Shown here one piece after another: positions 2,698-28,920 of a stretch of 64,000 nucleotides of DNA. The notes beneath the pieces are model-generated. The model made no database searches. It had not been told where the DNA came from and saw only the letters and a program-made list of their open reading frames with translations. Position 1 is the stretch's first letter, and the number at the start of each line of letters is the position of its first letter. The stretch spans positions 2,108,001 to 2,172,000 of the forward strand of contig NZ_CP036150.1 in NCBI RefSeq assembly GCF_008329965.1, written 5' to 3'. The translations under genes were made by a program, and so were the position numbers. The stretch is from Oceanispirochaeta crateris. GTDB taxonomy: Bacteria; Spirochaetota; Spirochaetia; DSM-2461.

Positions 2698-4194
2698 TTA
2701 GGATTGTACTGTTTCTCTCCAAAAAACGTTGTTTCCGGATTCGATGGGGATATAGCAAGCCTTGTTTCCCCCCTGAAAACTCCCCAACAGGGCCTGAATC
2801 CTCTCGGTCATGGATTCCAGGGCCTGATTGATCAAGGCCGGATCATAGCCCCCCTGTCCCATTTCTAAAGTCCATTCCAAACCGGTGATCCTTCCCAGAA
2901 TGCGGCCAAAATCTACTTTTTTCCTCTGAACCATATCGGGACTGACCGAAAATGATGTAATTTTTTTGAACCGCTCCGCCATTCTGGATGTAAGAGGATG
3001 GGAGGCAAGGGCTTCTGAGAGATTAAAATTCTTTATCAAGGCCATATGTTTCAGAAACTGATCGGCAACCTGTTGATAGATGACGTCATTGGAGCCTTCA
3101 AAAATCTGGAAGGGACGGCTGTCTACAACGGAGCGGCCGGCAATATGGCTGAGTTTATATCCCTTGGCTCCCACTAGCTGAAGAAGAGATTGGGAGGCAT
3201 TTTGCATCATATCGCTCAGGACAGTCTTATGAACATTGGCTTCCAGGGATTTACCCGAAAGATCATGATCAATGGAGGAAATACCCGCAGCATGGCGGCA
3301 AAACGCAGAAGAAATGGTAAAGTCGGCCTGGAGTTCTGAGAGCCTTTTCTGGACCTGATCATAAGAAAAAAGAGACTTCCCGCTGACAACTCTCTGCCTA
3401 GTATGGCTCACAGCCTCATCCAGCATGCGGTGAATAAACCCAGTAGCCATACCGGAAAAACGCATTCTGCTCCTGTGCAGAAGATCCTGCATCAGCCGGA
3501 TACCCGATTTTCCGGGAATCAGTCTGTGATGTGAGGGAACTTCGATATCCACCCTGTTGCGTGCATAGGGAATCATATAGAGTCCCAGGTTTGAAAACTC
3601 TTCTACGGGCTTTACAAACTGTCTGGGGTCGGATGAATCACAGATGAAAAAATCGATGTCCCGTTTAAGCTCATCGGAACCCTTCTTTTCTCTGGCCGTC
3701 ATCAACCAGTAATCGGCTCGGCCGCTGAGGCCTGCCCAGTGCTTTTCACCCTCGATGGTATATCCGCTGCGGCTTTTTTCCCAGCTTGTTTTCATGGCAA
3801 GAGCATCCGTTCCATAACCTGGTTCTGTAATCATGAGTCCACCCAGGGAACTATTGTTTAGAAAAGACGGGAATGTTTCATTTTTAAGTTTTTCTTCACC
3901 ATACTTGGCAAGGGGTTCCAGAAACAGGGCTCCGTTGATTCCAAGTATCAGTGACAGAGGTAGAGACTCATAGGATGTAGACTCCAGAAGACTCAAAATT
4001 TCCGCAGGATGACTCCCCCTGCCGCCATAGGCTTGGGGAATAGAGACCGCGGATGGATTAAGGGCCGTGATCTGGTCCAGGACTTTCTCGGGAATCCCTC
4101 TTTGAAGTTCTTCTGAAGGCAGATTCTGTTGTGAGAAAAGATTTTTAAGTACTTTTTGATATTTCTTGAGATAGTCGCTAAATAATTCAGACAT
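2698..4194 (-). CDS. Acyl-CoA dehydrogenase family protein
   Basis: FAD-dependent acyl-CoA dehydrogenase homologue of 498 residues. The N-terminal helical domain is followed by the middle beta-domain signature (MITEPGYGTDALAM) and the substrate/FAD strand EGEKHWAGLSGRADYW. The C-terminal helical domain contains QIFEGSNDVIYQQVADQF, the place where the family usually has the EGTN flavin-contact segment. No ETF, thiolase or hydratase genes are nearby, so it looks like a solitary enzyme rather than part of a beta-oxidation operon. The C-terminal 120 residues are less typical. A role in fatty-acyl or amino-acid-derived acyl-CoA oxidation is known for the family; the substrate here is unknown. Confidence 0.82.
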   Translation of the reverse strand: MSELFSDYLKKYQKVLKNLFSQQNLPSEELQRGIPEKVLDQITALNPSAVSIPQAYGGRGSHPAEILSLLESTSYESLPLSLILGINGALFLEPLAKYGEEKLKNETFPSFLNNSSLGGLMITEPGYGTDALAMKTSWEKSRSGYTIEGEKHWAGLSGRADYWLMTAREKKGSDELKRDIDFFICDSSDPRQFVKPVEEFSNLGLYMIPYARNRVDIEVPSHHRLIPGKSGIRLMQDLLHRSRMRFSGMATGFIHRMLDEAVSHTRQRVVSGKSLFSYDQVQKRLSELQADFTISSAFCRHAAGISSIDHDLSGKSLEANVHKTVLSDMMQNASQSLLQLVGAKGYKLSHIAGRSVVDSRPFQIFEGSNDVIYQQVADQFLKHMALIKNFNLSEALASHPLTSRMAERFKKITSFSVSPDMVQRKKVDFGRILGRITGLEWTLEMGQGGYDPALINQALESMTERIQALLGSFQGGNKACYIPIESGNNVFWRETVQS

Positions 4195-4277
4195 ATTGGA
4201 AGCCTCTCTTATATAATACTTATCTACTAATATATAAGAGAATGCAAGCTTTCAAACTGCTAAAACTGATTTTTATG

Positions 4278-5657
4278 TTAATCATCATGGATCATTGCCT
4301 TGAATAGTCGCCCCTTTATCTGATCTTCTTCCAAAACTTTCAGAGCTTTGGCGGCGCTTTCCCGCTTCACAGCCACAAATGTAATATAGTCCAGGCGGTC
4401 TATTTTGCCCACATCATCTCCGGGAATACCCTTTGGAGAAGTCAAGGCACCCAGGATATCTCCGGCACTGATTTTATTCCTCCGCCCTCCATTAATAGAG
4501 AGTGTCACCATGGCGGATTCGAGGTCCTCGACAGAGGTTAATTCTTCAAAATCAAGACGCTCCGCTTTGTACCGGCTGTTCAAAAACTCATTGATTGAAT
4601 CGAGCCTAAAGGCCTCTTTCTCGCGCATTAAAGAAAACGCAAGGCCTTCCGAACCGGCTCGCCCTGTCCGGCCGATCCTATGGACATAGGTCTCGGTTTC
4701 GAAGGGCAGTTCATAATTGATGACAGCACCCAGATTCTTGATGTCCAGGCCCCTGGCTGCGACGTCGGTAGCCACCAGGATTCTGGAGCTTCCATTGGAA
4801 AAGCGAATCAGGACTTCCGTCCGCTCTTTTTGTTCAAGATCACCATGGAGAGCCAGGCTGTGAAGACCCGAATCCTGCAGCTCTTTTTCTACCCGCCGGC
4901 AAGAATCCTTGGTATTGCAAAAGACAATGGTGGAATCCGGGCGAAACCGGGCCAGAATAGAAACAACTGCTTTGGTCTTCGCCACGGGAGCCATCTCATA
5001 AAAACGCTGGTGTATGACACTCTCTTCATGCTGAGTCTCAACTTTGACTTCAACAGGTTCATTCATGACCGACTGACTGAGCGCTTGTATCTCGTCGGGA
5101 AAGGTGGCGGAAAAACAGAGGGTCTGCCGTTTCGCAGGGGCAAATTTCATGATTCCCTGAATCTGATCTATGAATCCCATATCCAGCATTCTGTCTGCTT
5201 CATCCAGCACAATCATTTTCACTTCATCCATCACAAGAGACCCTCTTTGGAGGAGCTTTAAAACACGCCCGGGGGTTCCCACAATAATATGAGCCTGATG
5301 ACTAAGAGAGTGTTCCTGTTTGTGCATGGGAAACCCACCTGTAATCTTCAAGAGCTTGATATTATGCTGGAATCGGGCCAGGCGGCGCAGCTCAGCTGTG
5401 ACCTGTTCTGCCAGTTCTCTTGTGGGGCACAAAACGACTGCCTGAACCCGGTATCTTCTAGTATCCATATTATGGAGCAGTCCAATGCCGAATGCGGCGG
5501 TCTTACCACTTCCTGTTTTGGCTTGTGCCAGGACATCAAGCCCTTGGAGAATAGGAGGAATGCTCATTTCCTGAATATCAGTCATGGTTTCATAATGCAG
5601 GTACTTCAGGTTCTCTTGAAATTCACGGGAGAGAGGAAGATGTGTAAATGCTTTCAT
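4278..5657 (-). CDS. dbpA: DEAD-box ATP-dependent RNA helicase, DbpA type
   Basis: RNA helicase of 459 residues with all core motifs: AQAKTGSGKT (Walker A), PTRELAEQV, GTPGR, VLDEADRMLDMGF (DEAD box), SATFP (motif III), VATDVAARGLDI and HRIGRTGRAG (motif VI). The last ~75 residues form the DbpA/CsdA-type RNA-binding domain (ISAGDILGAL, GKIDRLDYITFVAV), which in the known family recognises hairpin 92 of 23S rRNA during 50S assembly. ATG at 5657 is chosen; a TTG nine bases upstream is possible. It stands alone between genes of unrelated function. Confidence 0.93.
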   Translation of the reverse strand: MKAFTHLPLSREFQENLKYLHYETMTDIQEMSIPPILQGLDVLAQAKTGSGKTAAFGIGLLHNMDTRRYRVQAVVLCPTRELAEQVTAELRRLARFQHNIKLLKITGGFPMHKQEHSLSHQAHIIVGTPGRVLKLLQRGSLVMDEVKMIVLDEADRMLDMGFIDQIQGIMKFAPAKRQTLCFSATFPDEIQALSQSVMNEPVEVKVETQHEESVIHQRFYEMAPVAKTKAVVSILARFRPDSTIVFCNTKDSCRRVEKELQDSGLHSLALHGDLEQKERTEVLIRFSNGSSRILVATDVAARGLDIKNLGAVINYELPFETETYVHRIGRTGRAGSEGLAFSLMREKEAFRLDSINEFLNSRYKAERLDFEELTSVEDLESAMVTLSINGGRRNKISAGDILGALTSPKGIPGDDVGKIDRLDYITFVAVKRESAAKALKVLEEDQIKGRLFKAMIHDD

Positions 5658-20420: not shown

Positions 20421-20504
20421 GCGGTAGTGGTGGAATTGGTAGACACGCCAGCTTGAGGGGCTGGTGCTGGCAACGGCGTGGAGGTTCAAGTCCTCTCTAC
20501 CGCA
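20421..20504 (+). tRNA. tRNA-Leu (anticodon GAG)
   Basis: Cloverleaf readable by eye: acceptor stem GCGGTAG/CTACCGC, D-arm with GGTAGACACG, anticodon stem CCAGC/GCTGG with loop TTGAGGG (anticodon GAG, reads CTC), a long variable arm typical of class II tRNA-Leu, and T-arm GAGGTTCAAGTCCTC. The discriminator base is A; CCA is not encoded. Confidence 0.97.
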
Positions 20505-20512
20505 TTAGAAAA

Positions 20513-20547
20513 ACCCTGAGTGCATTTATGTGCTCAGGTTTTTTTTA
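20513..20547 (+). terminator. Terminator after tRNA-Leu
   Basis: CCTGAG (20515-20520) pairs with CTCAGG (20533-20538), followed by a run of eight T residues. Confidence 0.92.
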
Positions 20548-20756
20548 TGTCCAAAAAGAAGAAGACTTGAACTGGACCTTTAGGCCCAATCAGATAATGA
20601 ATAAAGCAGTCAGTGACGAGACTATGGAGAGACAGAAGAAATGGAAGGACTTATCCCCACTAACCTGAGAGAATGACTTCATCTTTAGAGACTAAGAAGC
20701 AACTGATTTCAGCATAAAAAAATCAAAAGTTGTGACAACTATGTTGAAACATTCCG

Positions 20757-21248
20757 CAGTCCAGGTAGATTACCGGATAAACCGCATCTAACGGCCGGTT
20801 CTGCCAGGCAACAACATCTTCCATCACACCATCAGTAATTTTTGAAATCAGAGTATGTGAGACTTCAACATCGTACATTTCCTTGAACGTGTCAGCGATA
20901 TCTCTTGTTGTCATGCCCTTGGCATAGAGAGTGAGAATATTGCTATCCAAATCAATTTCTGAAGTATCTGTTTTTAAAGTTTTCTGGGTATAACCATTCC
21001 GAGAGTTCTCTGAAGGTCGCTGACCATTCTTTTTCTCTCCAAGATGTTCCTCCATCTCAATCTCAAGAATGCGTTCCATGGCAACCTTGGCCAACATTTT
21101 GGTCATATCTGAGATATCCTGCGGTGTCTTCAGGTTCTTGGCTAGTTTATCAGCCAACTCGTTAAAATCATCTGTGTCGTACAATATAAAAGCTCCTATA
21201 TTCTTATATCAAAGATTAAGAGCTTTACACAAATTTATTTACAGGCTC
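20757..21248 (-). mobile_element. IS256-family element fragment (5' part of transposase, truncated)
   Basis: Encodes the N-terminal ~145 residues of a Mutator/IS256-type transposase (LADKLAKNLKTPQDISDM, MERILEIEMEEHLG, PLDAVYPVIYLDC) from position 21184 downward. Homology stops just after YLDC, ahead of the DDE catalytic core, so the copy is dead. The outer end at 21248 carries the terminal repeat that reads GAGCCTGTAAATAAATTTG inward, the same as at the end of the copy at 34061. It is inserted in an older integrase-core remnant: the integrase reading frame breaks exactly at the IS end. Confidence 0.85.
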
Positions 21249-21545: not shown

Positions 21546-21764
21546 CACTGCTTCCGAAAAGGTCTGAATTATAATGAAGCAGTGAAGTTATGAAATTGAA
21601 CATATTTGAATATCAGCAGTCTTTTATTTAAAAGGATTTCTACATTAGTTGATAAAGCCATAGCACAGGGTTGAAGATCTACTTTCTCTGTATAAGGTCT
21701 ATTTTCATACCTAGAAAAAAGATTATTTTAACTAATTCTACCGAATTGATGCATTTCTCTTCAT
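21546..21764. other. AT-rich intergenic sequence without a gene
   Basis: No open reading frame of note, no RNA gene and no hairpin of terminator type was seen. It is probably decayed insertion-sequence or spacer DNA between the transposase remnants and the oxidoreductase promoter. Confidence 0.5.
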
Positions 21765-21832
21765 TAGTATACTTTTAGATACTACTATCTATAATAACAC
21801 CTACTTGACTTTATCAAATGTATACCTATTAT
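21765..21832 (+). promoter_or_regulatory. Promoter and possible HxlR operator of the oxidoreductase cluster
   Basis: TTGACT (21805-21810), a 16-base spacer and TATTAT (21827-21832) form a likely vegetative promoter ahead of the gene at 21872. A perfect inverted repeat TAGTAT-N8-ATACTA lies at 21765-21784, 20 bases before the -35. HxlR-family regulators bind such TA-rich palindromes, and an HxlR gene is in this cluster; the link is inference. Confidence 0.5.
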
Positions 21833-21871
21833 TGACAGCATAAAAGAGTAAAATATTTTAGGAGTAGTAAG

Positions 21872-22858
21872 ATGAAAACATATGGATATATGAGAGCCCA
21901 CGATATTCAGAATTTTTCGATAGAAGAAATGAATATAAAGACAGCAGAGCCAGGCTCACTGGATGTTATTGTGCGGGTGAAGGCAATATCCTTTAATCCC
22001 GTAGATACCAAGATTAGAGAAGTGAGAAGCAGTGAAGATGAACAACCGCAAATCCTGGGTTGGGATGCCTCTGGTATTATTGAAGAACTGGGTTCTGAAG
22101 TTACGAGTTTCTCTAAGGGAGATGAGGTATTTTATGCGGGAGACCTCACCCGTCCAGGCAGCTATTCCGAATTACAGGCAGTAGATTATCGTTTAATAGC
22201 CAAAAAGCCTGTATCCATAAGTCACAATGAAGCAGCAGCCCTCCCCTTAACTTCAATAACTGCATGGGAAGCTCTCTTTGAAAGGGGTTTTGAATATACA
22301 GCAGAGACAAAGGTTCTTATTATCGGTGGTGCTGGTGGAGTTGGATCAATGGCGACTCAACTTCTTAAAGCACTAACCCCTGCGACTGTCATTGTTACCG
22401 CCTCACGTGAGGAAACACAGGATTGGTGCGGCAGCATGGGAGCTGATTATGTAATAGGCCGCGATATAGAGAAAGACCTGATCGAGAAAGGTATAGATCA
22501 GGTGGATATTGTGTTTAGCACCACTCATACTGACCAATATCTTGATGTCATACAGAGTATTCTTCGACCCTTTGGAAGTCTTGTACTCATTGACGATCCT
22601 GAGAAACTGGATATTGTTTCATTTAAAGTAAAGGCACTATCTGTACATTGGGAATTAATGTTTACAAAATCCATGTTTGGTTATCACCCGGAACAGCAGG
22701 GACAGTTCTTTGCAAAGCTCGCGACCCTGGTGGATCAGGGAAAAGTAAAATCAACTATAAATATGACACTTCCTAATTCAATTGACAGTATCCGTAAAGC
22801 TCATAAATTACTCGAGAGTGGAAAATCAATAGGCAAAATTGTAATGGAACGTTCATAA
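21872..22858 (+). CDS. Zinc-type alcohol dehydrogenase-like / quinone reductase-type oxidoreductase
   Basis: Medium-chain dehydrogenase/reductase of 328 residues. The N-terminal GroES-like domain has VKAISFNPVDTKIR and LGWDASGIIEELG; the NAD(P)-binding Rossmann fold is at about 148-165 (VLIIGGAGGVGSMATQLLKA). Structural and catalytic zinc cysteines are absent, as in quinone reductase and zinc-independent relatives. It likely reduces quinones or reactive carbonyls with NADPH. A good AGGAG precedes the ATG. It leads a same-strand run with nitroreductase, flavin/ferredoxin protein and HxlR regulator, which suggests electrophile detoxification. Confidence 0.88.
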   Translation: MKTYGYMRAHDIQNFSIEEMNIKTAEPGSLDVIVRVKAISFNPVDTKIREVRSSEDEQPQILGWDASGIIEELGSEVTSFSKGDEVFYAGDLTRPGSYSELQAVDYRLIAKKPVSISHNEAAALPLTSITAWEALFERGFEYTAETKVLIIGGAGGVGSMATQLLKALTPATVIVTASREETQDWCGSMGADYVIGRDIEKDLIEKGIDQVDIVFSTTHTDQYLDVIQSILRPFGSLVLIDDPEKLDIVSFKVKALSVHWELMFTKSMFGYHPEQQGQFFAKLATLVDQGKVKSTINMTLPNSIDSIRKAHKLLESGKSIGKIVMERS

Positions 22859-22859
22859 A

Positions 22860-23033
22860 ATGAAATACACCGGTCCCCTTTTCAGACCTCCACTCGAGGC
22901 AAATACAGTACTACTTCAGGTGTCTGTTGCTTGCGCCCGTGACAAAGAGAGAATGATCAGGGCAATTGATGATTCAATTAAACAAACAGATAATGAGTTC
23001 TTAAACAGCGTTGATGCACGGAACTCACTATAA
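22860..23033 (+). pseudogene. Internally deleted radical SAM protein relic (57 codons)
   Basis: An open frame from ATG 22860 to TAA 23033. The first ~26 residues (MKYTGPLFRPPLEANTVLLQ then VSVACA) match the N-terminus of a radical SAM family whose members continue into the CxxxCxxC motif. The rest (RDKERMIRAIDDSIKQT, then NEFLNSVDARNSL) matches the usual far C-terminus. Thus the middle, including the cluster-binding cysteines, has been lost in frame. Recognition of the family is from memory and needs a search. The start overlaps the preceding stop region closely, so it was once the second gene of this operon. Confidence 0.65.
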
Positions 23034-23057
23034 ATAAACAAGATAAGGAATATAAAA

Positions 23058-23597
23058 ATGGATGCAGTTACATTACTGAGAGAAAGAAGAAGTATAAGAG
23101 CTTTTAAAGATGAAGTAATAGATAGAGAGATCATGAAAAAGATTATTGACAATGCAATTTATTATCCCAGTTGGGCGAACACTCAGACAGCAAGATATAC
23201 CTTAATTGATGACAAAGAAATTGTTAAAAAACTGGCTGAAGAAGGAATGTTCGGACCAAATATAAAGACTGTGGGTAAGGCACCTGCAGCATTAGTTATC
23301 AGCTATGTGAATGGATTTACGGGAAAGGCTCCCGGTGGAAATGAATTTGTAACGAAAAAAGGAGCATCCTGGGATATGTTTGATGCAGGAATTGCCAGTC
23401 AAAACTTTTGTCTTGCAGCATATGAAAAAGGTGTTGGTACTGTTATCATGGGCCTTTTTGATGAAGATAAAGTATCAGAGATTATTGATCTACCAGAAAA
23501 TGAAACAGTGGCAGCCGTTATCCCCTATGGATATGAAACTAAACACCCCAAGGCAGCACCACGAAAAGCAATTGATGAAGTAGTAAGATATATTTAA
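23058..23597 (+). CDS. Nitroreductase family protein
   Basis: A 179-residue FMN-dependent nitroreductase. The N-terminal LLRERRSIRAFKDEVI and YPSWANTQTARYTL contact FMN in the family; the late GVGTVIMGLFDEDKVSEII and VIPYGYE segments are typical. Such enzymes reduce nitroaromatics, quinones or flavins with NAD(P)H. AAGGA precedes the ATG. It is followed after 13 bases by the flavin/ferredoxin gene. Position in the HxlR cluster parallels HxlR-controlled nitroreductases in other bacteria. Confidence 0.92.
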   Translation: MDAVTLLRERRSIRAFKDEVIDREIMKKIIDNAIYYPSWANTQTARYTLIDDKEIVKKLAEEGMFGPNIKTVGKAPAALVISYVNGFTGKAPGGNEFVTKKGASWDMFDAGIASQNFCLAAYEKGVGTVIMGLFDEDKVSEIIDLPENETVAAVIPYGYETKHPKAAPRKAIDEVVRYI

Positions 23598-23610
23598 GGA
23601 ATTAGCGCTT

Positions 23611-24240
23611 ATGGATATTACAGATTACCTGAGAATTGTTGCAGATGAAATACATTCTGTTGTTGTCGCAACAGTTGATGAGAAAGATTTACCCTCTACA
23701 AGGGTTATCGATATTATGCTCTATGATGAAAATGGCTTGTATTTTTTAACTGCTAAAGGAAAAGTCTTTTACAAACAGCTTATGGAAAAAAGCTATCTAT
23801 CTTTAAGCGCTATGACTTCCGGTCCGGATACTATGTCACGAAAAGCAATTTCAATATCTGGAAACATCAGAAACATTGGATCTGATAGGTTGGAAGAAAT
23901 TTTCAAAAAAAATGCCTATATGAATGAGATCTATCCAAGTAAAGCAAGCCGAGAGGCTCTTGAGGTTTTCTGCCTTTATCGTGGACAGGGAGAATACTTT
24001 GATCTCAGCACAAAGCCTATCACCCGGGACAGTTTTGTTCTGGGTGGCGCTCCACTGCAGAAAGGGGGATTTTTGATCACAGAAAAATGTAGCAGCTGTG
24101 GAATCTGTATTGAAAAATGTCCTCAGGATTGCATTGATCAAGGAAGTCCCTATAAAATAAATCAGGAACACTGCCTTCACTGTGGAAACTGTTTTGATGT
24201 TTGCCCTGTAAATGCCGTTATCAAGGCAGAAAGGATTTAA
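23611..24240 (+). CDS. Pyridoxamine 5'-phosphate oxidase-like flavoprotein with 4Fe-4S domain
   Basis: A 209-residue two-domain protein. Residues 1-140 form a split-barrel FMN-binding fold ([36 protein letters not shown]). Residues 150-209 form a ferredoxin domain with two CxxCxxCxxxC groups ([15 protein letters not shown] and [14 protein letters not shown]). It probably passes electrons between a 4Fe-4S ferredoxin and flavin. Immediately downstream, one base away, starts the HxlR regulator, so the genes are cotranscribed. Confidence 0.9.
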
Positions 24241-24241
24241 A

Positions 24242-24610
24242 ATGGAAGTTGAAAAAAAGAAAGTATCCGCGGGTTGTCCTGTTGAAGCAGCTCTCAATGT
24301 AATCGGTGGTAAATGGAAAGGGATTGCCTTATACCATCTACTGGTAGACGGAACACTACGCTTTAATGAATTGAAACGAAGAGTTGGCAATGTTACACAA
24401 AGAATGCTTACAAAACAGCTAAGGGAACTTGAAGAAGATGGAATTATCAACCGACATGTGTATGCCGAAGTCCCACCGAAAGTAGAATACAGCCTCACAG
24501 AGAAAGGTGAAACTCTTCGTCCCATTCTGATTGGCCTAAGAGAATGGGGAATGGCAAATGCTTTTCCAGAGTTTTTAGAGAAAAATAGTACTGCCAGCAA
24601 TGATAAATAG
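24242..24610 (+). CDS. HxlR-family (winged-helix) transcriptional regulator
   Basis: A 122-residue regulator with the family signature: [38 protein letters not shown] (recognition helix), [33 protein letters not shown]. Cys12 in AGCPVE is the conserved cysteine that in the HxlR family (YodB, HypR) senses quinones or disulfide stress. ATG at 24242 is one base after the upstream stop and follows AAAGGA. It likely regulates the preceding oxidoreductase genes. Confidence 0.92.
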
Positions 24611-24690: not shown

Positions 24691-24709
24691 TGTAACTATT
24701 GACATTACA
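24691..24709. promoter_or_regulatory. TGTAA/TTACA palindrome, operator copy 1
   Basis: TGTAACTATTGACATTACA. It overlaps the probable -35 TTGACA (24699-24704) of the macrodomain-SirTM operon; the -10 is TTATCT at 24721-24726. Same motif as at 24731 and 26443. Confidence 0.7.
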
Positions 24710-24730
24710 CCAAAGAACCATTATCTTAGG

Positions 24731-24749
24731 TGTAACATATCTAGTTACA
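24731..24749. promoter_or_regulatory. TGTAAC/GTTACA palindrome, operator copy 2
   Basis: TGTAACATATCTAGTTACA, six-base arms perfect, and the symmetry extends outward through CTTAG/CTAAG. It lies just downstream of the -10 and 20 bases before the macrodomain start codon, a position expected of a repressor site. Confidence 0.72.
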
Positions 24750-24768
24750 TCTAAGAAGAGAGGATAAA

Positions 24769-25596
24769 ATGAGACTAAGAGAATATGCAGATGCAATATC
24801 TTTATATACTTCTGTATCCAGACCGGAAATAATATCCCGGAAAGATGAGTTAATCTCCACTCTTAACAAAGCAATCAATTTTCTCAGTAATGAACAAAAA
24901 TCATATTCTAAGATTCCGTTGGATCTGGAGGAAAAGAAGAAGAACCTCAGGGGTCTATTAAATCAGAGAATGCCCGGAATAATCCCCAATGATATAAGCT
25001 TAATCCTTGACAGAATTCTCTGGACTGAAAGGGTTGAAAAAGGAATTGTAGAACTCAAAGAAACAGAGGCTGTATGGAGAGGAGATATTACACAACTACA
25101 GGTAGATGCCATTGTGAATGCAGCAAACAGTGATATGCTCGGATGTTTTCATCCTCTTCATGCCTGCATTGATAATGCCATACATTCTGCTGCCGGACCT
25201 CAATTAAGAGAAGACTGTCATAAAATAATGAAGCTCCAGGGCATCAGGGAGCAAACAGGATGTGCAAAAATAACAAAAGCTCATAACCTGCCCTCAAAAT
25301 ATGTGGTTCATACAGTAGGTCCCATTGTAGAATCTACACTAAGTGAAAAACACAGATCCCTACTGGCATCCTCATATAAATCCTGTCTTGATCTTGCATC
25401 CAACCTGGAAGACATAAGGAGTATAGCCTTCTGCTGTATCTCTACAGGAGTCTTTGGCTATCCCAAAGAAGAGGCCGCAATTACAGCAATTAAAGCAGTG
25501 AGAGAATGGAAAAAAGAAAATCCTGACAGATTTGACCGGATCATTTTCAATGTATTTACGGAGAAAGATTATGACATCTATAAAAGACATATTTAG
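24769..25596 (+). CDS. Zinc-dependent macrodomain protein-ADP-ribose hydrolase (SirTM-linked)
   Basis: A 275-residue protein. After an N-terminal helical extension (1-95), the macrodomain starts at AVWRGDITQLQVDAIVNAAN. The segment MLGCFHPLHACIDNAIH carries C126, H131 and C133, the zinc ligands of the class that removes ADP-ribose put on by SirTM sirtuins; IAFCCISTGVFGYPKEEAA is the second phosphate loop. In known systems it reverses ADP-ribosylation of a lipoyl carrier. It overlaps the next gene (SirTM) by 26 bases. Two palindromic operators precede it. AGAGAGGA precedes the ATG. Confidence 0.93.
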   Translation: MRLREYADAISLYTSVSRPEIISRKDELISTLNKAINFLSNEQKSYSKIPLDLEEKKKNLRGLLNQRMPGIIPNDISLILDRILWTERVEKGIVELKETEAVWRGDITQLQVDAIVNAANSDMLGCFHPLHACIDNAIHSAAGPQLREDCHKIMKLQGIREQTGCAKITKAHNLPSKYVVHTVGPIVESTLSEKHRSLLASSYKSCLDLASNLEDIRSIAFCCISTGVFGYPKEEAAITAIKAVREWKKENPDRFDRIIFNVFTEKDYDIYKRHI

Positions 25597-26404
25597 ACTG
25601 ATAAACGAAACTAAAAATATACTGATTGGTGCCGGCTCAGGTCTCTCGGCAGCAGGTGGAATGCTGTATACAGACAAACCCTTCTTTGATAAACACTTCC
25701 CCGGGTATTCTGAAAGATATGGTCTGGGCTATACCTACGAAGCTGCCTTCCATAACTTCCCAACACTGGTAGAACAATACACATATTGGGCCAGACATAT
25801 CAAAGAAATGAGAATTGATTTTCCTGTGGGCGCTGTATATACAAGGCTTTTGGAATTGCTTAAAGATAAGAACCATTTTGTAATTTCGACAAATGTTGAT
25901 GGTCAGTTTGAAAAAGCTGGATTCGATAAGGAGAAACTATTTACGCCGCAAGGGGATTACTCCTTTTTCCAATGTTCTCGGCATTGCTGTGATCAATTGT
26001 ATTCAAATAAGGAATGGTGTGATCAAATGCTGGATGGTATAAAAGATACCGACTTTGCCGGTCATAAAGACCATATCCCCTTTTGTCCTAATTGCGGAGA
26101 ACTGCTGGCAGTCAATATCCGGAAAGATTCATTTTTTGTTGAGAAACCCTGGATGGCAAAACAGGAGGACTATGCCTCTTTTATTGATTCTACTAAAGGA
26201 GAAGAATTAGTACTCCTTGAACTTGGTGTGGGCTTTAATACGCCAACAATTATCAGATTACCCTTTGAAAAATTGGCTGCTGACAGAAAAAATATAAGTT
26301 TAATACGGGTTAATCAGGATAATACACAGTTATTTCTTAAAGAAGCTGAAATGAACTATCTAAGCGTGCAACAGCCAATTGAAAAATTCTTAATGGAATT
26401 ATGA
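25571..26404 (+). CDS. SirTM-class sirtuin (protein ADP-ribosyltransferase)
   Basis: A 277-residue class M sirtuin. The NAD-binding start is ILIGAGSGLSAAGGMLYTD; the active-site segment reads ISTNVDGQFEKAGF, where class M sirtuins have replaced the usual catalytic His of deacylases, consistent with ADP-ribosyl transfer. Zinc-binding cysteines lie in CSRHCCDQL and FCPNCGELL. ATG 25571 is preferred to an earlier start because GGAG lies seven bases before it. Coupled to the macrodomain gene, as in Staphylococcus and Streptococcus operons, but the lipoyl carrier (GcvH-L) and ligase (LplA2) partners of those operons are not in this window. Confidence 0.93.
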   Translation: MTSIKDIFRLINETKNILIGAGSGLSAAGGMLYTDKPFFDKHFPGYSERYGLGYTYEAAFHNFPTLVEQYTYWARHIKEMRIDFPVGAVYTRLLELLKDKNHFVISTNVDGQFEKAGFDKEKLFTPQGDYSFFQCSRHCCDQLYSNKEWCDQMLDGIKDTDFAGHKDHIPFCPNCGELLAVNIRKDSFFVEKPWMAKQEDYASFIDSTKGEELVLLELGVGFNTPTIIRLPFEKLAADRKNISLIRVNQDNTQLFLKEAEMNYLSVQQPIEKFLMEL

Positions 26405-26442
26405 GGAACTGAATCAGTATGTGTCTATTTTTTGCAAACAGA

Positions 26443-26461
26443 TGTAACTATCATAGTTACA
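26443..26461. promoter_or_regulatory. TGTAAC/GTTACA palindrome, operator copy 3 (perfect)
   Basis: TGTAACTATCATAGTTACA is a perfect 9+1+9 palindrome, 38 bases before the lipoprotein start codon and 38 after the SirTM stop. It suggests a separate promoter for the NTF2-like genes under the same regulator. Confidence 0.75.
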
Positions 26462-26499
26462 CATAGAATATTAACGTCAAACACGTATAGGAGAGTTTT

Positions 26500-27351
26500 A
26501 TGAAAAAAAGTTTTATAGCCATGGTCATTTTGGAAGTATTGGGAATATTTATTTTTAGTGGATGTACCAGCATATCTGCAGAGAAGAAACTTACAAACAG
26601 TGATAAAGCATTACAGGTATTAAATAGTCTGGAAAGTGGAGATCCTGCTGCATTTGAAATTTGGGTCAGTGAAGATTCCTATACCCAGCATAATCTTACA
26701 TTTCCTGATGGGAGACAAACTGTTCTGGATGCCTTGCCCTCACTTAAAAAAGCCGGAACAACTGTGGAAATCAAAAGGGTAATCACGGATGGAGACTTTG
26801 TTGCCCTTCATTCAGCGTACAATCTTTTTGGAGAGAAAGCAGGATTTGATATTTTCCGTTTTGAGAATGGTGTAATCGTTGAACACTGGGATAATCTGAG
26901 CTCTATAACGGCAGCCAACCCCAGCGGTCATACTCAGTTAGACGGTTCAATAGTGATCAAAGACAGAGAGCTGACAGATCAAAATAGAAGCCTTGTAAAA
27001 AACTTTGTTAATGATGTACTGATAGGTAAGAATCCCGGGAACATAACAAAGTATTTTGATGGTGATAAGTACATACAGCACAACTCAGGAATAGCAGATG
27101 GTCTGAGTGGATTAGGAACAGCTCTGGCATTTATGGCTGAAGCAGGAGTGACAATGACTTATGATGAGACTCATATGGTTATTGCAGAGGGTAACTTTGT
27201 GCTGACAGTAAGTGAAGGTTCATTTGCTGCTGAACACACTTCATTTTATGATTTATTCAGAGTTGAAAATGGGTTTATTGCGGAACATTGGGACATAATA
27301 GAAACTATTATTCCTGAATCAGAAAGAGCGAATACTAACGGAAAGTTCTAA
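26500..27351 (+). CDS. Lipoprotein with two NTF2/SnoaL-like domains
   Basis: A 283-residue protein with a lipoprotein signal (FIFSGC, acylated Cys about 22). Two homologous SnoaL-like alpha+beta barrels follow, about 35-150 and 160-283; each contains the paired motif YTQHN/YIQHNS and ends in FENGVIVEHWD/VENGFIAEHWD. The small single-domain gene downstream shares the same signature, so the three domains are paralogous. SnoaL-type folds bind or isomerise small hydrophobic molecules; a specific activity is not known. It lies directly after the SirTM operon and behind the third palindrome. Confidence 0.85.
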   Translation: MKKSFIAMVILEVLGIFIFSGCTSISAEKKLTNSDKALQVLNSLESGDPAAFEIWVSEDSYTQHNLTFPDGRQTVLDALPSLKKAGTTVEIKRVITDGDFVALHSAYNLFGEKAGFDIFRFENGVIVEHWDNLSSITAANPSGHTQLDGSIVIKDRELTDQNRSLVKNFVNDVLIGKNPGNITKYFDGDKYIQHNSGIADGLSGLGTALAFMAEAGVTMTYDETHMVIAEGNFVLTVSEGSFAAEHTSFYDLFRVENGFIAEHWDIIETIIPESERANTNGKF

Positions 27352-27420
27352 AAAGTAATATTGGGATCTGAGATCACTATTTTGTCAGATCCCTTATACT
27401 TACACTGAAAGGAGTATGAA

Positions 27421-27804
27421 ATGAGTCAGAATCTTAAATTAAACAAACAGAATGCCATAGCTTTTTATAAAATGTCCTATATGGGACAACCGTCTCAAGC
27501 AATTGAAAAATATGTTGGGGCAGAATATATACAACACAATCCGGCTGTAAAAAATGGGAAAAGTGGATTTATCAGCTACTTTGAACAGATGTTAAAAGAA
27601 TATCCAGATAAAAAAATTGAGTTTGTAAGAGCCCTTGCAGAAGGTGACCAGGTAGCCCTTCACACTCACCAGACCTGGCCGGGAAATGATGAATATGTAA
27701 CTATGGATTTTTTCCGATTTGATGATCATGGAAAAATTGTTGAACATTGGGACTCTATTCAGCAGATACCTGATAAGACAGAATGTGGTAACACAATGTA
27801 CTAA
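27421..27804 (+). CDS. Single-domain NTF2/SnoaL-like protein
   Basis: A 127-residue cytosolic SnoaL-like protein with the same landmarks as the upstream lipoprotein: YIQHNPAVKNG, FVRALAEGDQVALHTHQTW, FFRFDDHGKIVEHWDSIQ. It lacks a signal peptide. AAAGGAG precedes the ATG. It is 69 bases after the lipoprotein gene and shares its promoter by spacing. A hairpin terminator follows. The substrate is unknown. Confidence 0.87.
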   Translation: MSQNLKLNKQNAIAFYKMSYMGQPSQAIEKYVGAEYIQHNPAVKNGKSGFISYFEQMLKEYPDKKIEFVRALAEGDQVALHTHQTWPGNDEYVTMDFFRFDDHGKIVEHWDSIQQIPDKTECGNTMY

Positions 27805-27813
27805 AGGAGAATT

Positions 27814-27853
27814 ACCTGACTAGCGAAGCAGTTGTCAGGTTTCTTCTTTTTGT
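27814..27853 (+). terminator. Terminator after NTF2-like genes
   Basis: ACCTGAC (27814-27820) pairs with GTCAGGT (27834-27840), followed by a T-rich tract. Some read-through into the regulator downstream is possible. Confidence 0.75.
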
Positions 27854-27871
27854 TTAAATTACGAGGTAACA

Positions 27872-28300
27872 ATGCAGATAGGTACAAAATTTTCAGTTTC
27901 AATTCATATTCTACTCAGTGTTGAAGTCTTTAAAAATGATTACAAAGTAACCAGTGATTTTATAGCCTCAAGTGTGAATACAAATCCAGTGGTAATAAGA
28001 AAGCTTATGAGCCTTCTGAGAAATGCCGGACTTATAGAAATTACCCAGGGAACCGGTGGCATAGAACTGACAAGAGCTCCCGATCAAATTTCCTTAAAAG
28101 ACATTTACAAGGCAGTAGAACCACAAACGGAACTATTCAAGATTCATAAGGACACAGCTCCAGGCTGCCCTGTTGGTGGAAACATAGAACACCTACTGAC
28201 CCCCTACTTCGCAAAACTACAAAGTTCTTTTAACGAGAATCTAAACACTGTCACCCTGGCAGATATGATGACATCCCTGGCCAATTTACATAAAAGATAG
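27872..28300 (+). CDS. Rrf2-family transcriptional regulator
   Basis: A 142-residue regulator: winged helix with FSVSIHILLSVEVF, VTSDFIASSVNTNPVVIRKL (recognition helix) and LIEITQGTGGIELTRAPDQI (wing). A single conserved Cys occurs in APGCPVGGNIEHLL, as in the YwnA-like branch, so thiol sensing is possible; the three-cysteine iron-sulfur motif of IscR/NsrR is absent. It is the best candidate to bind the TGTAAC/GTTACA palindromes upstream of the SirTM and NTF2-like genes. No copy of that palindrome lies directly before its own start. Confidence 0.9.
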   Translation: MQIGTKFSVSIHILLSVEVFKNDYKVTSDFIASSVNTNPVVIRKLMSLLRNAGLIEITQGTGGIELTRAPDQISLKDIYKAVEPQTELFKIHKDTAPGCPVGGNIEHLLTPYFAKLQSSFNENLNTVTLADMMTSLANLHKR

Positions 28301-28384
28301 ACATTTGCTGCAAGCAACTGAGTCGCAATTTATTATAGAATGAGCCGAACTTATGAGTTTGAATGACCAGAACAATTTGTTACT

Positions 28385-28500
28385 GATCACAGAATACCGC
28401 CCATCATAATCGATGGCAAATCTATTCTTTATAGATTTTCTGATAACACTGTTCACAGATTCTATCGCATTTGTCGTATAGATGATCCTGCTAATCAAGA
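28385..28500 (-). mobile_element. IS256-family remnant (C-terminal transposase piece with internal deletion)
   Basis: Minus-strand translation reads IYTTNAIESVNSVIRKSIKN fused to RFAIDYDGRY, both from the C-terminus of the same IS256-type transposase seen at 33058-34025, where about 100 additional bases separate the two segments. No terminal repeat was found here. Non-functional. Confidence 0.75.
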
Positions 28501-28627
28501 CTGTAGTCATTTTCACAAAACATGAATGTACCCATAGCCATATCCCTTTCACCATCTTCTACAACTTCTTAAGTTCCAGCATCTACCATAGAATAGATTG
28601 CCCTCTCAGTTGTTTGAAAAGTAATGA

Positions 28628-28920
28628 CTACGTTACGGCCTTCAACATGAAAGAACCAATTATTGAATGGTGGGTTCTACTTTGAGCACTATCAAAAATT
28701 TCAAAAGCAGGTTTTAATTCTTCGTCTACAGGTTTCATTTCTTTAGTGATACCATCAGATTCAAGGACTTGATATCTTTCAATTAATTTGAAATTCCTGT
28801 CATATAGAAAATGGCTACCTACAACCATAGCTACAATACAAATTTTTCCACTATCAAGTCTTCAGATAAACCTGCTATTATGAGCATATATAGAAGCAAT
28901 ACAATTAATGTTTTCTTCAT
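28628..28920 (-). pseudogene. Decayed gene for a small secreted protein
   Basis: From ATG at 28920, preceded by GAGGAAA, the minus strand encodes a signal peptide (MKKTLIVLLLYMLIIAGLSE) that runs into a stop after about 29 codons. Shifting frame near residue 20 continues an open frame (GKICIVAMVVGSHFLYDRNF, ERYQVLESDGITKEMKPVDE) to 28628. The pattern fits a frameshifted gene rather than two genes. The product family is not recognised. Confidence 0.55.

Follow-up and report, generated by a model that had tools for sequence, protein, structure and literature searches.

Class M sirtuins (SirTM) paired with zinc-containing macrodomain proteins (Zn-Macro) are known from the extended, redox-linked operon of Staphylococcus and Streptococcus, and also from 'independent' or 'minimal' operons that carry the pair without GcvH-L and LplA2. 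Spirochaetaceae and Treponema pedis are named among the holders of such lone pairs, and their targets, roles and trigger are left open (Rack et al. 2015, PMC4518038; 2024, PMC11490716). One minimal-operon enzyme, MorMacro of Methanobrevibacter oralis, does not demodify GcvH-L. SifR, which senses quinones, and HypR, which senses HOCl, are Rrf2 repressors that bind the core operator TGTAA-N9-TTACA, and YwnB of S. pneumoniae is a quinone reductase under SifR control (PMC9218516). Here we analyse a 64-kb window of the Oceanispirochaeta crateris genome (positions 2108001-2172000 of a single contig of 4.01 Mb) in which a lone SirTM/Zn-Macro pair is accompanied by two SnoaL/NTF2-like genes, an Rrf2 gene and three palindromes of this operator type. 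We read it, with a probability of about 0.72, as a stress-response locus controlled by an electrophile-sensing Rrf2.

The lone pair is not new in itself: the locus resembles the described minimal operons in its QG-type SirTM, its adjacent Cx4HxC macrodomain and its lack of GcvH-L and LplA2. What is new is the tie between lone pairs and a SifR/YwnA-type electrophile regulon, together with the NTF2-like partners; term searches of PMC4518038 and PMC11490716 found no regulator, operator or NTF2-like partner named there, and a specific repressor and regulon are proposed for this locus. A search of open-access papers found none joining these topics, which is not proof of novelty.

Palindromic operators and their proposed Rrf2 regulator

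The sequence-only reading had recognised a Zn-macrodomain, a SirTM, a tandem NTF2-like lipoprotein, a single NTF2-like protein and an Rrf2 regulator, with two 19-bp palindromes before the macrodomain gene and one before the tandem NTF2 gene. Open reading frames (ORFs), Pfam and PDB sequence matches, the latter two providing the domain calls of the five genes, bear out this layout:

24691-24709, unstranded: putative operator 1 (TGTAACTATTGACATTACA), including the -35 hexamer TTGACA of the macrodomain-SirTM promoter
24699-24727, plus strand: candidate promoter TTGACA-N17-TATCTT, between and inside the two operators (10/12 consensus matches, consensus scan only)
24731-24749, unstranded: putative operator 2 (TGTAACATATCTAGTTACA), immediately 3' of the -10 hexamer
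24769-25596, plus strand: predicted Zn-macrodomain protein-ADP-ribose hydrolase (Pfam Macro, NCBIfam NF003163, PDB 8RSI, motifs)
25574-26404, plus strand: SirTM, class M sirtuin, ATG start (PDB 5A3A, QG motif), overlapping the macrodomain gene at 25574-25596
26443-26461, unstranded: putative operator 3 (TGTAACTATCATAGTTACA), 5' of the tandem NTF2 gene
26500-27351, plus strand: tandem SnoaL/NTF2-like protein with lipobox FSGC (Pfam, AlphaFold2, Foldseek)
27421-27804, plus strand: single SnoaL/NTF2-like protein (Pfam), with homologues near SirTM in loci L045 and L046
27805-27850, plus strand: hairpin, likely a terminator, between the second NTF2 gene and the Rrf2 gene (-18.7 kcal/mol, z -4.75)
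27872-28300, plus strand: Rrf2 repressor with one cysteine (C99 in CPVG), SifR/YwnA type, the proposed operator-binding regulator

Apart from these three palindromes, the window has no zero-mismatch TGTAA-N9-TTACA site. A search for further copies, suggested with the sequence-only reading, confines the perfect form TGTAAC-N7-GTTACA to this locus across the 4.01-Mb genome (24731 and 26443); one-mismatch matches elsewhere occur at control level, and with the strict pattern no further regulon members rose above that level in this genome. Among 393 sampled spirochaete genomes, the pattern TGTAAY-NN-TTGACATTACA yielded 63 matches in 41 genomes and its reversal none, while SirTM loci hold 69 strict sites against 0 for the reversed pattern. 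On window, genome and phylum counts set against their controls, a chance or genome-wide motif was rejected. By consensus scan, site 1 of the macrodomain gene contains the -35 hexamer and site 2 starts just past the -10, a repressor layout, and paired operators 36-42 bp apart are also seen in relatives.

We surveyed SirTM neighbourhoods, and all regulatory statements made here are comparative. SirTM was found in 64 of the 393 genomes, and 69 SirTM loci were annotated, six of them on plasmids and one from Erysipelotrichaceae (the Bacillota sample comprises plasmid records and one contig). Rrf2 lies nearby in 34 of these 69 loci; the strict operator or its Treponema GTTC variant is present in 29 of those 34, as against 4 of the 35 loci without nearby Rrf2 (Fisher p = 3e-10, relatedness not corrected). 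Since Rrf2 linkage changes at least seven times on the SirTM tree and gene order varies between clades, the association is not a single inherited event. Half-sites of the form TTGTTC/AAGTTC in Treponema accompany a changed Rrf2 reading region (GVNAV; GVGGSHL), as expected of a true regulator-operator pair. The match to the SifR/HypR operator, the co-occurrence with Rrf2 and this shift with its DNA-reading region together support the assignment of the palindromes as Rrf2-type operators. The earlier idea of one regulon, linked to Rrf2 by a shared palindrome, stands as regards operator type, co-occurrence and co-variation; a single operon that includes the Rrf2 gene together with the NTF2 genes is unlikely given the strong terminator candidate at 27805-27850.

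The sole cysteine of the window Rrf2, C99 in APGCPVGG, aligns to YwnA and sits at the start of helix alpha5; the best solved relatives are the uncharacterised Rrf2 protein 1YLF and YwnA itself (1XD7). The genome encodes three further clear Rrf2s, each with several cysteines, which leaves the window protein as its only one of the single-cysteine (CPVG) type. All spirochaetal Rrf2s found near SirTM or operators retain a CPV/CPI-type cysteine, as does that of Niallia, and E. casseliflavus has CIVG. The locus shares with the SifR/YwnA monothiol regulon the CPV cysteine, the operator (at three sites) and, in relatives, YwnB-type reductase targets, but the published SifR targets are catechol, quinone and iron genes, and PMC9218516 contains none of the words 'macrodomain', 'sirtuin' and 'SnoaL'. 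With HypR-MerA of S. aureus it shares an Rrf2 repressor and the same operator core; HypR, however, senses HOCl/HOSCN through a Cys33-Cys99' disulfide, whereas the window protein has one cysteine in place of the C33 and C99 dithiol and scores 43 bits with the HypR model against a cut-off of 180.

Relatives place the operators before further redox genes. In genomes that we call Brachyspira-like, an inferred group label, operators precede Macro-SirTM, with Rrf2 divergent, and occur again before a YwnB-like gene 3' of SirTM. On plasmid pMEGANia of Niallia taxi, three operators accompany an Rrf2 gene that points away from a quinone-reductase-like gene, YwnB, SirTM and Macro (divergent layout), and the Treponema saccharophilum gene row reads YwnB, PNPOx, Rrf2, SirTM, Macro. 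Loci without SirTM carry operators before PNPOx-Rrf2, Rrf2-PNPOx and YwnB-Rrf2, and operators stand 5' of YwnB, PNPOx and tandem NTF2 genes in unlinked loci. The presence of YwnB, PNPOx and quinone-reductase-like genes under these operators suggests electrophiles, quinones first, as the signal.

Other genes near operators were noted in passing. Three Brachyspira-like loci (L139, L136, L151) have paired operators before an EFR1-like flavodoxin/ferredoxin gene, and four (L135, L137, L140, L158) have one operator about 50-70 bp before a gene for a predicted membrane protein of about 470 residues, with a CheW-like gene adjoining. At L153 (3421-4681), operators are flanked on one side by a gene similar to the operator-controlled gene of L147 and on the other by a short frame like a Zn-macrodomain N-terminus. 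At L047, from the same genus as the window (genome G006), operators and macrodomain start are joined at about 3600-4320 to the last, C-terminal third of SirTM, and both Rrf2 and HxlR are intact; it is apparently a decayed relative, and could also be an assembly fault.

The macrodomain-sirtuin pair and its possible target

In the single SirTM of the genome the catalytic His is replaced by Gln (HG to QG, TPQGDY), and the protein matches S. pyogenes-type SirTM structures (PDB 5A3A, E 2.1e-37). The QG motif and the adjacent Zn-macrodomain gene place it among class M sirtuins, with protein ADP-ribosyl transfer as its predicted activity. The macrodomain protein passes the NCBIfam NF003163 cut-off and has the NAAN motif and the Cx4HxC zinc loop GCFHPLHAC (IVNAANSDMLGCFHPLHACIDN); its nearest solved relative is MorMacro (PDB 8RSI, E 3.7e-68). 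Pfam Macro starts at residue 116, indicating a long N-terminal extension, and the 8RSI match starts at residue 33. Another genome of the same class encodes a SirTM identical to the one on Treponema saccharophilum plasmid pTS1.

A second SirTM context was seen at L171, L010 and L067, where radical SAM/SPASM, nitroreductase and DUF1848-like genes accompany Macro-SirTM. The radical SAM/SPASM protein of L171 is annotated as acgM of an ACGX system; L010 and L171 are without the Rrf2 operator, and at L067 (4729-6426) the macrodomain is fused to a DUF1848-like N-terminal domain. L048 (6970-7641) encodes a divergent SirTM-like protein with NG for QG (TPNGS), possibly an inactive relative, and no macrodomain was found nearby.

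Unlike in the extended operon, with which it shares SirTM, Zn-Macro and the redox link, no GcvH-L, LplA2, OYE or LLM gene was found adjacent to the window pair. That the lipoyl genes are missing here had been claimed from the sequence and is borne out by ORFs and genome searches, which also found neither a GcvH-L/LplA2 operon, nor a dispersed GcvH-L/LplA2 system, nor a second SirTM carrying these genes anywhere in the genome; a dispersed system was rejected. The one clear GcvH (above the family cut-off) is flanked by gcvT and gcvP, and elsewhere lie three genes of the LplA/LipB/BPL family; in our reading two resemble biotin ligases and the third (L015) resembles a lipoate ligase. With one SirTM, a GcvH within gcvT/gcvP and LplA-family genes elsewhere, the genome holds a lone SirTM/Zn-Macro pair. 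A different target for ADP-ribosylation, an idea raised in general before, is plausible given that GcvH-L is not demodified by MorMacro, the nearest solved macrodomain; GcvH-L itself is probably not the target.

NTF2-like neighbours

The tandem protein has two domains with QHN and EHWD motifs in each. A Pfam SnoaL match and a confident AlphaFold2 model (pLDDT 87.7) predict a tandem NTF2 fold, which was modelled for this protein only. In a Foldseek comparison the model weakly resembled Lsd19, a two-domain epoxide hydrolase, as well as limonene-epoxide hydrolase and cyclases. The fold and two-domain layout appear to be shared with such SnoaL/NTF2-fold enzymes (Lsd19, limonene-epoxide hydrolase, ester cyclases), but identity to Lsd19 is 13%; we infer an enzymatic, detoxifying role. 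The protein is a predicted lipoprotein in three genera of family f1, and the versions of family f12 have no signal peptide.

Sixteen of the 393 genomes have such an NTF2-like gene in tandem or single form; families f1, f12 and f3 are represented. All eight SirTM genomes that have one carry it within 1.5 kb of a CPV-type Rrf2, and in the eight genomes without SirTM the gene stands alone (0/8 beside a CPV-type Rrf2). Six of the first eight genomes come from f12, so that there are fewer independent events than the count suggests. The proposal that NTF2-like genes are partners fares well: they are conserved beside SirTM or Rrf2 in three spirochaete families.

Competing explanations and proposed mechanism

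It is possible, though we lean against it, that the NTF2-like genes only ride along in a general redox island, where chance or transfer put them, and have no part in the ADP-ribosylation pathway. They are missing from most SirTM loci, the tandem gene stands alone in eight sampled genomes without SirTM, and a Mutator transposase remnant with a tRNA-like sequence lies 5' of the cluster; on the other side, they recur by SirTM and/or Rrf2 in three families in differing orders, those of f12 carry the operator even when unlinked from SirTM, and L188 has a single-domain NTF2 gene in place of the tandem one. The flanks of the cluster (a tRNA-Leu-like sequence and shortened Mutator-family transposase, PF00872, at 20425-21184; short transposase-like frames without Pfam match at 28286-28828 on the 3' side) possibly mark a genomic island, and a search of plasmids for near-identical DNA of the locus found none. 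It is improbable that the system is the known lipoyl pathway with dispersed genes, SirTM acting on canonical GcvH or on some other lipoylated protein from outside the locus: the genome does have GcvH and a lipoate-ligase-like gene, but this GcvH is of the glycine-cleavage type and seems to retain the C-terminal region that GcvH-L characteristically lacks, and the inability of MorMacro to demodify GcvH-L tells against it as well.

The palindromes could also be operators of a neighbouring HxlR regulator, with the Rrf2 gene an unrelated neighbour. We appear to have two adjoining modules in the window, an HxlR module (21762-24610) and the Rrf2 module (24691-28300); the former includes, on the same strand and 5' of the locus, a quinone-oxidoreductase-like (qor) gene, a nitroreductase and a PNPOx-ferredoxin protein (the PNPOx-ferredoxin and HxlR genes had no place in the sequence-only reading), with these further features:

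24212-24610, plus strand: HxlR-family regulator (Pfam), directly 5' of the cluster
21762-21815, plus strand: conserved promoter element CATTAGTA...ACTA...CCTACTTGAC, candidate HxlR operator, 5' of the qor/nitroreductase/PNPOx-ferredoxin/HxlR genes

HxlR regulators sense electrophiles too, and the Erysipelotrichaceae locus L010 has an HxlR gene divergent from SirTM; its genome yielded no Rrf2 relative, a weak negative. Yet the operator is missing from the HxlR loci that lack Rrf2 (L010, L046, L171), operators together with Rrf2 but no HxlR are found in Brachyspira-like, f12 and Niallia loci, and the three HxlR-bearing f1 loci (window, L047, L046) share the other element before their reductase genes. 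HxlR as the palindrome binder is very unlikely, and was rejected on co-occurrence and this separate conserved element. Several points do count against control by Rrf2: HxlR also adjoins the operators, the window Rrf2 gene lacks a palindrome and is probably transcribed separately, five Rrf2-bearing SirTM loci lack a recognised operator (L095, L098, L167, L170, L188), L090 is a weak case, many SirTM loci of Treponema have no Rrf2 close by, the GTTC pattern for Treponema was set post hoc, and two further f1 genomes (L045, L046) keep NTF2 near SirTM with neither Rrf2 nor operator.

In favour of an electrophile-sensing Rrf2, the sequences show the parts of the locus, operators that co-occur and co-vary with this Rrf2, and partners that recur; binding at the window operators and the identity of the inducer are proposed. 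The single-cysteine Rrf2 would bind the operators overlapping the macrodomain/SirTM promoter and 5' of the tandem NTF2 gene, until a reactive electrophile, most likely a quinone, alkylates the CPVG cysteine. The modified repressor would leave the DNA and repression would lift, inducing an ADP-ribosylation cycle in which SirTM writes and Zn-Macro erases, with the NTF2-like proteins made alongside; in relatives the same switch may also drive YwnB-type reductases and PNPOx flavoproteins. More speculatively still, and on balance doubtful, lone SirTM/Zn-Macro pairs could serve a widespread electrophile response of the SifR/YwnA type as its ADP-ribosylation arm; the target would be non-lipoyl, and the NTF2-like proteins of the regulon would act as effector or substrate.

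Recurrence of the arrangement in distant bacteria hints at what switches the system on. PMC11490716 (2024) treats both the physiological trigger and the target of SirTM/Zn-Macro pairs from outside the lipoyl operon as open questions. This locus and its relatives supply a proposed repressor, an operator and a candidate inducer class for lone pairs, which makes that question directly testable, and would link the ADP-ribosylation pathway to a tandem NTF2-like family that is so far uncharacterised.

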